A program made the translations under genes and the position numbers. From Ktedonobacteria bacterium (GTDB lineage Bacteria > Chloroflexota > Ktedonobacteria > Ktedonobacterales > JADMIN01): DNA of 37,434 nt. Shown here piece by piece: positions 406 to 33,277 of the stretch; position 1 is the stretch's first letter, and each line of letters begins with the position of its first letter. The stretch lies in NCBI GenBank assembly GCA_027307065.1, contig DAHUXT010000003.1, positions 1 to 37,434 on the forward strand, written 5' to 3'. Under the pieces are notes generated by a model. It had not been told where the DNA came from. It worked only from the letters and a program-made list of their open reading frames with translations, and searched no databases.

Positions 406-435
406 CTAGATGTGCGCGCTCTAGATGTGCACGCT
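406..435. repeat. Tandem 15-bp repeat (ctagatgtgcgcgct / ctagatgtgcacgct)
   Basis: Two adjacent copies, 14/15 identical, between the dnaA stop and the HAD gene start. Confidence 0.8.
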
Positions 436-439
436 GTCG

Positions 440-2194
440 CTAGCCCACCAGTTGTTGGCGGATGGCCAGCACATCTTTGCGAAGCGTCGAGTTCTCGTTG
501 ACCTCGCGATTGATCTTCTCACAGCCGTGCATCACGGTGCTGTGGTCGCGTCCGCCAAGCGCCTGACCGATTTCCATCAGGGAGGCTTCCGTCTCTTGCC
601 GCATCAGATACATCGCCACCTGCCGCGGGATCACGATATGCTTGTCGCGCTGTTTGCCGCACAAATCCTCCGGCGAGATGCGATAGTGCTCGGCCACTGC
701 CTCCAGCACATCGGCGACACTGACCCTTCGCTGGCGGCCATCCGTGGCGAGGCTGGCCAGCGCGGACTTCGCAGCGTCGATCGTCAACGGCATGCCCTGC
801 AATTGCGAGTACGCCAGCAAACGATTCAGGCTACCTTCCAGCTCGCGAATGTTGCTATGTATTCTGCTGGCCAGGTATTGGATGACCTCGTCAGGCACTT
901 TGCGCTGCATCATGTCGGCCTTGGCGCTGAGAATCGCCACGCGTGTCTCCAGATCAGGTGGTTGAATATCGGCGATCAGCCCCCACTCGAAGCGCGAACG
1001 CAGCCGCTCTTCCAGACTGACGATAGCTTTCGGCGGCCGGTCGCTGCAGATGACGATTTGCCGGTTGCTCTCATACAGGCTATTGAAGGTGTGGAAGAAC
1101 TCTTCTTCGGTCGAATCTTTGCCCGCGATGAACTGGATATCGTCCACCAGCAGCAGATCTGCCGAGCGATATTTGGCGCGGAACTCCTCGGTGGTGCGAT
1201 ATCTGATGGCGTTGACGATCTCGTTGGTAAACGTCTCCGATGACACGTAGAGGACAGACATATTGCGCTCGACAGCGGTATGCCCGATCGCGTGGAGCAG
1301 GTGCGTCTTGCCCAGACCAACACCGCCATAGAGGAACAGTGGATTGTACGCCTGCCCAGGCGCCTCGGCCACCGCCAGCGATGCCGCGTGGGCAAGCTGG
1401 TTGGCGCTACCGACGATGAACGTCGAGAAAGTATATCGAGCGTTCAGGCGCGGTGGTGGAATGAACATGCTCTGTCCTCCCCCAATGGCGGAGTCGTAGT
1501 CCGCTCGTGCATCGGGAGTAGCGCGGCGTTGCGACTCACCCGCTGGTGTAGCCGAGGCGATAGGTGCCTGTCTGTCCATCGTATTCCGAGGATTGACCGA
1601 TGAAGTGGTATCAATCGCGGCGGTTCCATCAGTCCACCGATCATCCTGACCTGGCGTCTCGGGGACAACCTGATTCGACTGCCCTTCGTAGGCGTCGCGC
1701 TGATCGCCAACGTTGCCGTTTGAGCGTGTACGGTCGAGTGCGGCGCGCACACGTTGGCTTCGGCTGGCGGCCATGGTAGGTGGCAATGATTGCCGCGCCG
1801 AAGACCCCCCCAGTACACGCGAAGCGGCGGCCGGAGGATCATCCGGAGTTGCGAAGAGCGCTGGCCGGTCATACGCAGATTCTGGCTGTGCGCTCGTGCG
1901 CCGGGGGCCAGAACGCCGGTCGAAATCGCCACTGGCAAGGTCGGTGTCACCCGCGACCACCGCGATCTGCAGCGCAAACGGTTCCCCCGCGATATCCGCG
2001 ATGGCCGCCTCGATCCGGTCACGATAGCGCGTCTCCAGCATATCTTTGGCAAACGTCGTGCGCACCCGTAGCACACAGTCGCCAGCATCGTTGAGCGCGA
2101 GCTGCGTACCGCGAAGCCAGGTGTCGAACTGCGCGCGCGAGAGTTCGCGACGCAGCCGTTCGAGCGCCGCCCGCCACACGTGTGCCGTATTCAC
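440..2194 (-). CDS. dnaA: Chromosomal replication initiator protein DnaA
   Basis: 584 aa; Walker A GGVGLGKTHLLHAIG, Walker B LLLVDDIQFIAGK, C-terminal GRDHSTVMHGCEKI DNA-binding signature; long variable domain II. Confidence 0.98.
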   Translation of the reverse strand: MNTAHVWRAALERLRRELSRAQFDTWLRGTQLALNDAGDCVLRVRTTFAKDMLETRYRDRIEAAIADIAGEPFALQIAVVAGDTDLASGDFDRRSGPRRTSAQPESAYDRPALFATPDDPPAAASRVLGGSSARQSLPPTMAASRSQRVRAALDRTRSNGNVGDQRDAYEGQSNQVVPETPGQDDRWTDGTAAIDTTSSVNPRNTMDRQAPIASATPAGESQRRATPDARADYDSAIGGGQSMFIPPPRLNARYTFSTFIVGSANQLAHAASLAVAEAPGQAYNPLFLYGGVGLGKTHLLHAIGHTAVERNMSVLYVSSETFTNEIVNAIRYRTTEEFRAKYRSADLLLVDDIQFIAGKDSTEEEFFHTFNSLYESNRQIVICSDRPPKAIVSLEERLRSRFEWGLIADIQPPDLETRVAILSAKADMMQRKVPDEVIQYLASRIHSNIRELEGSLNRLLAYSQLQGMPLTIDAAKSALASLATDGRQRRVSVADVLEAVAEHYRISPEDLCGKQRDKHIVIPRQVAMYLMRQETEASLMEIGQALGGRDHSTVMHGCEKINREVNENSTLRKDVLAIRQQLVG

Positions 2195-2460
2195 GGGATA
2201 TCCTTTATCTTGACCTGCGCGAGTGAGCGCGTAGATTGGGTGCAGCTACGGGTCTCGCCGTTCGAGGGCAGCCAGCGCTGCCCGGCAGGTCATCGCCCGA
2301 CAGTGCAGGAAATAGTACACGACTTGCCTGCCAGCCTGCAAGCGCCCCACCTGATTTGGCCCAATTGTCTGGTTGATGAACTGCCGCTACAGCGTACAAC
2401 GTACGGCGCCCTCATAGTGTTACCCAGCGACGTAATTCTGCTGAACCGGCTACGCGTTGC

Positions 2461-2490
2461 TTGACACACGCAGGTCCATCTCTTTATGCT
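2461..2490 (+). promoter_or_regulatory. Candidate sigma70-type promoter for fabG-like gene (TTGACA-N18-TATGCT)
   Basis: TTGACA 2461-2466 and TATGCT 2485-2490, about 100 bp upstream of the CDS. Confidence 0.5.
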
Positions 2491-2589
2491 GAGCGCAACA
2501 ATGCCGATGGATTCTTCGACCCTACATTTCCCCGATGATGAGCGCGCAGCGGAAATTGCGCCTGAACCACTCAATGAGGAGGCACGACG

Positions 2590-3363
2590 ATGGCAGGTAG
2601 ACTCGACGGTCGGGTGGCGCTGGTCACTGGTGGGGCACGTGGCATCGGCGCAGCGACTGCGACGCGACTGGCTGCCGATGGCGCGCTCGTAGCGCTCGCC
2701 GACCTGGATGAGTCACAGGCGCAAGATACCGCCCGCCAGATCGACGCCTCGGGTGAACGGGCGCTGGGGATTGGCTGCAATGTCGCGGAAAGCGCGCAGG
2801 TGCAGCAGATGGTCGATCGCACGTTAGAGCGTTTTGGCCGGCTGGACATCCTCGTCAATAATGCTGGCATTACCCGCGACAATCTGCTCTTCAAGATGGG
2901 TGAAGATGAGTGGGACGCCGTGATCGCCGTCCATCTGCGCGGAGCCTTCCTCTGCGCACGCGCCGCGCAGAAGCCGATGGTCGAGCAGAAATATGGCCGC
3001 ATTATCAGCCTTTCATCCGTCTCCGCGCTGGGCAATCGCGGCCAGGTCAATTATTCGGCGGCAAAGGCTGGACTGCAGGGGTTGACTCGCACACTCGCTA
3101 TCGAGTTGGGGCCGTTCGGCATCACTGCCAATGCTGTCGCTCCTGGCTTCATTGATACCGACATGACACGCGCCACTGCCGAGCGCATGGGGCTGACGCC
3201 AGAGCAGGCACATGCGGGCGCGTCGGCGCGTATTCCGCTGCGGCGGGTTGGGCAGCCGAGCGAGGTCGCATCGGTCATCGCGTTCCTGGCCTCCGACGAC
3301 GCGAGTTACGTCAGCGGGCAGATTATCTACGTCAACGGCGGCCCAGCGGGGCTCTCGATGTAG
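2590..3363 (+). CDS. fabG: 3-oxoacyl-ACP reductase-like short-chain dehydrogenase (FabG family)
   Basis: 257 aa SDR; TGGARGIG, NNAG, YSAAKAG and C-terminal GGPAGLSM; upstream RBS gaggaggcacgacg. Confidence 0.9.
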   Translation: MAGRLDGRVALVTGGARGIGAATATRLAADGALVALADLDESQAQDTARQIDASGERALGIGCNVAESAQVQQMVDRTLERFGRLDILVNNAGITRDNLLFKMGEDEWDAVIAVHLRGAFLCARAAQKPMVEQKYGRIISLSSVSALGNRGQVNYSAAKAGLQGLTRTLAIELGPFGITANAVAPGFIDTDMTRATAERMGLTPEQAHAGASARIPLRRVGQPSEVASVIAFLASDDASYVSGQIIYVNGGPAGLSM

Positions 3364-30888: not shown

Positions 30889-31143
30889 CCCAATCTGCAA
30901 TTATACCGTGCGACGTGCCGAACGCGGCCACATGGCGGCATGCGCCATGCGCGCTACCCTTGAGAGAGGCGAGGTGACGAAAAAGAGACTCGACGCTGGC
31001 AGGGATTCATTGTACTATGCAGTGCGATGGCGCGACGATGACGCGTGCCACGAACACCGACGTTCAACTGCCGATTCGGATGTCCTCCGGATGGCTATGT
31101 CGCGGCGAAAGTCGCTGGGCGGAACCCGCCGCCACGAGGAATC

Positions 31144-32505
31144 ATGCGTTATTACCAAGACATTCTCGAAACCATCGGCCACACGCCGCTTGTCCGATTG
31201 AACCGCATCGCACAGGATGTCAAGCCACTGATACTGGCGAAGGTTGAGTATTTCAACCCCGGTGGCAGTGTTAAAGATCGCATCGGCCTGTCACTCATCG
31301 AGGCGTGCGAACAGGCGGGAACCCTTAAACCGGGTGGCACTATCGTCGAGCCGACCAGCGGCAACACGGGCATGGGGCTGGCGCTCGCCGCCGCCATCAA
31401 AGGCTACCATCTCATCTGCGTAATGACCGATAAGGTTGCCGAGGAGAAACGGAGCTTGCTACGAGCATTCGGCGCCGAGGTCGTTATCTGCCCCAACAGC
31501 GTGTCCGCCGACTCGACAGAGAATTATCGAAACGTCGCGGCGCGGCTCGCGCGTGAGATTCCAGGGGCATGCAGCCCGAACCAATATGACAACCCGGCCA
31601 ATCCGCTGTCGCACTATCGCTCGACCGGCCCCGAAATATGGGATGATACCGACGGCAAAGTAACGGCGTTCATCGCGGGGGTGGGCACCGCTGGCACCAT
31701 TGTCGGCACGGCACGCTACCTCAAGGAGCGGAATTCGAAGATTCAGGTTATTGGCGCCGACCCGGCAGGCTCGGTCTATTCTCATGATGAATTGCACCCA
31801 TACAAAGTGGAGGGCATCGGGCAGGATGCCTACCCGCCCAATTGGGATGAGAGCGTTGTCGATAAGGTGATCCGCGTCGACGACCGCACATCGTTCCACT
31901 ACGCGCGCCGCCTCGCCCGCGAAGAAGGCATTCTATGCGGCGGCTCAGCGGGCACAGCCTTGGCCGCGGCGCTGGAATACGCTAAAGATGGCACCGCGGA
32001 CGATGTCGTGGTCGTCTTGCTGCCAGACACCGGGCGTGGATACCTCTCGAAGCAGTATAACGAGACTTGGCTGCGCGAGAACGGATTCGCCGAGGCTCCG
32101 GCACAGCCCACGCTCGCCGACGTGTTGGCATTCCGGCGACAGGCGGAGCCAGCAATGCCCGCTGTCATCGGCGTTTCGCCCAGCGACCCAGTGACAACCG
32201 CCATCGAGCACTTCCACCGCTACAGCATCTCGCAACTGCCTGTCATCGAGAACGGCAAAGTTGTTGGCTCGTTGACTGAGACCTCGTTGCTGCAGCGATT
32301 AGCGTCTGGTGATCGACTGGAGGAGCATATGGTCGGCGACTGGCAGAGTTCTCCGCTGCCTGCGATGCCAGAGACATCCACCGTGCGTGAGGCATACACA
32401 CTGTTTGCGGGCGGTCAGACGGCGATTGCGGTAACGGGCGCGCATGGCCTGAGTGGCGTGGTGTCGAAGAGTGATCTCATGGAGTTCTGGGCACGCAACG
32501 CCTAA
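31144..32505 (+). CDS. Cystathionine beta-synthase-like PLP enzyme with C-terminal CBS domain pair
   Basis: MRYYQDILETIGHTPLVRLNRI, NPGGSVKDRIGLSLIEA, PTSGNTGMGLALAAAIKGY, GSAGTALAAAL, then tandem CBS domains (PAVIGVSPSDPVTTAIEHFHRYSISQLPVIENGKVVGSLTE...). RBS gagga before ATG 31144. Confidence 0.92.
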   Translation: MRYYQDILETIGHTPLVRLNRIAQDVKPLILAKVEYFNPGGSVKDRIGLSLIEACEQAGTLKPGGTIVEPTSGNTGMGLALAAAIKGYHLICVMTDKVAEEKRSLLRAFGAEVVICPNSVSADSTENYRNVAARLAREIPGACSPNQYDNPANPLSHYRSTGPEIWDDTDGKVTAFIAGVGTAGTIVGTARYLKERNSKIQVIGADPAGSVYSHDELHPYKVEGIGQDAYPPNWDESVVDKVIRVDDRTSFHYARRLAREEGILCGGSAGTALAAALEYAKDGTADDVVVVLLPDTGRGYLSKQYNETWLRENGFAEAPAQPTLADVLAFRRQAEPAMPAVIGVSPSDPVTTAIEHFHRYSISQLPVIENGKVVGSLTETSLLQRLASGDRLEEHMVGDWQSSPLPAMPETSTVREAYTLFAGGQTAIAVTGAHGLSGVVSKSDLMEFWARNA

Positions 32506-32527
32506 CGCGAACAGCAGGAGTTCGCTC

Positions 32528-33116
32528 GTGACGATTCCCGTTGGCGCGGACGATTCGGCCATTAGATTAACGATCAGTCCTGGGCAGGCAATGCCTGCAT
32601 TCGCGCTTGCTAATGCGGCAGGCGATATTGTCCGGCTTAAGTCATTCAAGCAGCGTCGCCCAGTACTGGTGGCGTTGCTCCACGGCAGCTCCTGCCCGCA
32701 GTGCCGCGACTGGCTGGCCACAGTGGCGCATGTTCAAGGCGAGTTGGCCGACCTTCGAGTGCAGCCCTTGCTCGTAGTGCCTGACGATGTCGAGCAGCTG
32801 CCCGCACTCCAGGCCGGCACGGGTGCGCCGAAGAAACCGCAGAAAACGAATAGTTTTTAACCCCGCACTCCAGGCCGGCACGGGTGCGCCCGGTGTGTTC
32901 CTCTCAGACGCGGCTGGCGAGACACGGGCCCGGTTTTTATCCCGCAACGCACCATCGCTGCGCACGTCTGTCGTGCTCATTGCCGTCGACCAATACAGCG
33001 CCTGTCTGGAGGCGTGGCTGGCCAACGAACCGGGCCATTTGCCGACGATGGCCGAAGTGCTGGCAACCTTCGCCTTCGCCGAGCAAGAAGAGTGCGCCTG
33101 TGGCCTGCCCGCGTAG
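32528..33116 (+). pseudogene. Peroxiredoxin/AhpC-TSA-like (redoxin) gene split by a 61-bp insertion/duplication
   Basis: 5' part (GTG 32528, RBS aggag) ISPGQAMPAFALANAAGDIVRLKSFKQRRPVLVALLHGSSCPQCRDW... stops at 32860; 3' part ...ALQAGTGAPGVFLSDAAGETRARFLSRN...EECACGLPA* is in another frame; removing 61 bp fuses both into a 175-aa ORF. Confidence 0.85.
32801..32890. repeat. 29-bp perfect direct repeats (32801-32829 and 32862-32890) flanking a 32-bp AT-rich spacer
   Basis: cccgcactccaggccggcacgggtgcgcc occurs twice with a 61-bp period; spacer gaagaaaccgcagaaaacgaatagtttttaac is 11/32 G+C. Confidence 0.97.
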
Positions 33117-33277
33117 CCGAACCAGCAAGACAGCCAGTGACACCCTATGCGGCGCACTCCTCGGACAGATTTTTGACGGCCACGAGGGATTGACGCCGCC
33201 CACCCCGCCAAGCCTTGATGGTCGTCTTGACGGCGACTTGAGCACCCTGAATCCGCATGGTTGCACGAGAATTCTTG

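Follow-up and report, generated by a model that had tools for sequence, protein, structure and literature searches.

Off-target integration of CRISPR spacers has been described for the type I-E system of E. coli, in which repeats are 29 bp long, spacers are 32 bp long in 95% of cases, and the protospacer measures 33 bp, with the PAM supplying the last base of the repeat (PMC10011333). According to PMC11788318, overexpression of Cas1-Cas2 in E. coli leads to spacers entering sites outside the array, and the non-canonical type I-E spacer integration in E. coli by Nivala, Shipman and Church (2018) is cited there and in PMC9456107. Stray insertion of this kind has so far been known mainly from E. 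coli overexpression. Nivala, Shipman and Church are also reported to have proposed in 2018 that such insertions occurred naturally in Yersinia pestis and Sulfolobus islandicus.

The locus described here lies in a stretch of 37,434 nucleotides (the window; contig DAHUXT010000003.1) from the draft genome of a Ktedonobacteria bacterium (order Ktedonobacterales), where a redoxin gene is interrupted by a repeat-spacer-repeat structure with a repeat of 29 bp, a spacer of 32 bp and a period of 61 bp, the unit size of a type I-E array (Table 1). As in E. coli off-target integration, a foreign-looking insert of 32-33 bp was found in an ordinary gene between the copies of a 28-29 bp target duplication, the two lengths summing to 61 bp, and the site was empty in relatives. 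Unlike the E. coli cases, the genome is a natural draft rather than that of an overexpression strain, it contains no assembled cas genes, no source was found for the spacer, and the target has no clear likeness to a native repeat. A type I-E array, such as that of relative G017 (repeat GTGGTCCCCACGAGCGTGGGGATGATCCG), shares the 29-bp repeat, the 32-bp spacer and the 61-bp period. In the window, by contrast, the “repeat” is redoxin coding sequence and there is one spacer only, with no cas genes in the assembly; neither several repeats of I-E sequence nor a cas operon, which together mark an array, was present at the locus. In its workings the insert resembles the off-target integration of an I-E spacer, although its identity as one is not proven.

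Table 1. Features of the interrupted redoxin gene (positions in the window)
Feature	Position	Strand	Basis or remark
Redoxin gene, 5' part, with GTG start and CPQC motif	32528..32829	+	Pfam AhpC-TSA, PF00578
Redoxin gene, 3' part, shifted in frame relative to the 5' part by the 61 bp	32891..33116	+	
Repeat copy 1, native coding sequence, target-site duplication	32801..32829	+	in frame with the upstream redoxin part
Inserted 32-bp spacer, 34% GC, premature TAA at 32858-32860	32830..32861	.	no copy found elsewhere
Repeat copy 2, leading into the downstream part of the gene	32862..32890	+	sequence
Alternative delimitation: 33-bp prespacer with 28-bp duplication	32830..32862	-	first base on the minus strand is G, as a PAM-derived base would be

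The two repeat copies were identical at 29/29 positions and could not be extended on either side. The spacer contained 11/32 GC, compared with 61% GC for the host genome. Among direct repeats of at least 16 nt within 300 nt, this pair was the sole case in the window, and a scan of ~1.6 Mb of the host's own genome, about 40% of the total, recovered no second non-tandem exact repeat of this length flanking a short unrelated spacer; the pair is far beyond chance. A preliminary description had reported the two 29-bp copies, the 32-bp spacer of about 34% GC with its TAA, and open reading frames at 32453..32860 and 32787..33116, and every one of these coordinate and sequence claims was confirmed. 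It did not recognize that these dimensions are those of a type I-E CRISPR unit. It had further stated that dropping one repeat and the spacer restores the frame exactly to give a redoxin of 175 aa, and both the translation of the joined flanks from the GTG at 32528 (175 aa followed by a stop) and the uninterrupted relatives agreed. In the comparison of orthologue lengths that it had recommended, the joined product had the length of its relatives. Read through, the product belonged to the AhpC/TSA family, scoring 44.6 bits against PF00578 (cut-off 26), and the match, which had covered profile positions 1-75 out of 124, grew to 1-113.

The orthologue from the same genus (G001, 50% identity) aligned without a gap across the junction, as did the orthologues of two same-family genomes (G005 and G007). 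Because these intact orthologues align through the junction, the 61 bp is, on comparative grounds, a derived insertion with duplication. The rest of the redoxin frame carried no damage, and this, together with the identity of the repeat copies, suggests that the insertion event was recent.

We consider it about an even chance (roughly 0.5) that the 61 bp go back to a type I-E Cas1-Cas2 integrase that inserted a prespacer of ~33 bp non-canonically and in doing so duplicated 28-29 bp at the target. By this mechanism a single event would yield all 61 bp. A fragment of foreign DNA of ~33 bp would enter the redoxin gene, outside any CRISPR array, through two strand-transfer attacks staggered by 28 bp, and fill-in would duplicate the target; the 29th matching base would be shared by chance or derived from the PAM. 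The outcome would be a pseudo-array with one spacer and a shifted frame, in which the redoxin stops after about 100 residues. That this was a natural, gene-breaking I-E spacer insertion in a bacterium whose I-E system has been lost or is missing from the assembly is held tentatively, at a little short of even odds.

To evaluate the unit size, 400 genomes were surveyed across the phylum; an I-E cas2 was present in 30, and the arrays adjoining those genes were measured. A period of 61 was found in 348/394 adjacent repeat pairs (88%), spacers were 32 nt long in 291/332 units, and the 29th base of the repeat was G in 311/332. At the window locus, a G placed as a PAM-derived base at the start of the spacer occurred on the minus strand only, a result for which chance alone gives close to even odds when both orientations are counted. 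The duplicated target showed no significant likeness to I-E repeats, a resemblance that would support an off-target integration but does not define one; scored as an I-E repeat, its minus strand ranked within the highest 12% of 29-mers from the genome and its plus strand at their median.

Further traces of a type I-E system were sought in the host and its relatives. Using the phylum's own I-E consensus, a solitary I-E repeat, GTTGTCCCCACGCATGTGGGGGTGAACTG, was located on another contig of the host genome (C556:921-949), where a type I restriction subunit gene ends upstream of it; an initial repeat pattern (CCCCGC..GCGGGG) had found no array. The solitary repeat was identical at 27/29 positions to the repeat of another phylum member and scored 39.7 bits, compared with 18.4 for the runner-up site in 1.6 Mb. 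Neither a second repeat nor cas genes occurred near it, and the stretch preceding it had no likeness to the I-E leaders of relatives. It looks like a collapsed or relic array, and its presence indicated that the lineage probably once had an I-E array, unless C556 is a contaminating contig in the bin, for which 2.6% contamination was estimated.

Models of Cas1 and I-E Cas2 had no match in the host's own assembly (85% complete), and the I-E Cas proteins of relatives had none in 1.6 Mb of it. Matches to I-E Cas proteins on contig C14 were to housekeeping genes, which from their sequence we take to be polynucleotide phosphorylase and ribosomal protein S15. Absence of cas genes from a genome that is 85% complete is weak evidence, yet it lends no support to a CRISPR origin. 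Type I-E systems are rare in the host's order, and no I-E Cas2 was found in ten other genomes of the same family. The CRISPR arrays near the Cas1 genes of the family have 37-bp repeats, a length at odds with the 29-bp duplication, and on this ground those systems were rejected as its source. In the single-contig genome of a family member, a weak Cas1-like match was seen in a 625-aa frame (G005:C1:4733708-4734064), with no repeats found within 18 kb around it; possible readings are a Cas1 fusion, a solo Cas1 and a chance match.

Among single-event explanations, stray I-E integration was favored because it accounts for both lengths with no free parameter and because of the solitary I-E repeat. 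The sequence itself shows the structure, its derived state, the 29/32 geometry and the solitary repeat, and from there a type I-E enzyme as the agent and a foreign origin for the spacer are inferred. Counting against it are the lack of an assembled cas1 or cas2e, a target unlike I-E repeats, an AT-rich spacer and the failure to find a protospacer; moreover, the apparent recency of the insertion contrasts with the relic-like look of the one remaining I-E repeat.

The composition of the spacer was unusual by either standard of comparison. Only 0.2% of 32-mers in the host's own genome were equally AT-rich, and among the I-E spacers of the phylum, which differed from host GC by a median of +0.01, only 0.3% fell as far below their host. 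No copy of the spacer with up to 3 mismatches was found elsewhere in the host's assembled genome, and the longest run shared with 1.6 Mb of that genome was 11 nt, no better than shuffled controls. Scans of IMG/VR (exact, third-position-degenerate and 20-mer) gave no accepted source, and no protospacer was found in phage and plasmid collections or, by a 23-mer scan, in GTDB genomes. A 20-nt match to IMGVR_UViG_3300028887_000470 was treated as chance, as the other 12 nt aligned poorly. The same viral contig carries, at 419-3100, a variable-protein-like gene and, after it, a template-like repeat rich in asparagine codons, the region that the 20-nt match adjoins; judged by this arrangement, it looks like a contig holding a diversity-generating retroelement.

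The preliminary description had itself put forward a mobile-element scar, a filler duplication and an assembly artefact, and these stay in contention as rivals. Duplication with filler DNA during repair or replication was an unlikely explanation, albeit the best of the competing ones. A staggered break, or a template-switching polymerase returning upstream, would have copied 29 bp a second time and taken up 32 bp of other DNA, and the CRISPR-like lengths would be coincidental. No CRISPR system is required, and none is in the assembly; an AT-rich filler, atypical among the I-E spacers of the phylum, and a target unlike I-E repeats fit such a process. However, chance must then account for both a repeat of 29 bp and a period of 61 bp, which we estimate at a few in a thousand even with other CRISPR subtypes taken into account. 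The genome yielded no Ku gene, the searches of the host's own DNA described above (the assembly and the shared runs in 1.6 Mb) revealed no template for the spacer, and 1.6 Mb contained no similar scars of other lengths. The AT content is easier to account for by repair, but the coincidence of two lengths is needed.

An artefact of assembly or library preparation, in which chimeric reads or a wrong join interrupted a gene that is in truth intact, was less probable still. The contig was assembled from a metagenome and the draft is fragmented (558 contigs, 85% complete), and a gene otherwise undamaged, with a joined product as long as that of relatives, would fit an artefact. Conversely, the spacer is unique sequence, neither N nor of low complexity, and 32 new bases would not come out of a wrong join. 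In 1.6 Mb there was no second case, and a check of 1.4 Mb for gaps found only two 10-N gaps besides short contigs that were wholly masked. The preliminary description had also raised a reversible ON/OFF switch, in which recombination or slippage between the 29-bp repeats would restore the redoxin, and close perfect repeats can indeed be deleted with exact restoration of the frame, but such phase variation was very improbable because deletion discards the 32-bp spacer permanently and the assembly contains no donor copy (≤3 mismatches), leaving a one-way change and a single reversion at most, and the same-genus and same-family genomes carry only the intact form, not both states.

If stray integration is the true origin, the locus would be a natural, gene-destroying case, indicating that in the wild CRISPR adaptation carries a mutational cost. 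In wild Chloroflexota, adaptation would then act as an insertional mutagen and as the seed of a new array. A genome-wide scan for duplications of CRISPR-unit size with inserts inside genes could measure how frequent stray insertion is.

The interrupted gene lies between a cystathionine-beta-synthase-like gene with PALP and CBS domains upstream (31045-32505) and a gene for an extracellular solute-binding protein downstream (from 33513). The window gave no Rfam matches. A 12-nt inverted repeat with 92% complementarity (33087-33098 / 33151-33162) spans the end of the redoxin gene and is possibly a weak terminator.
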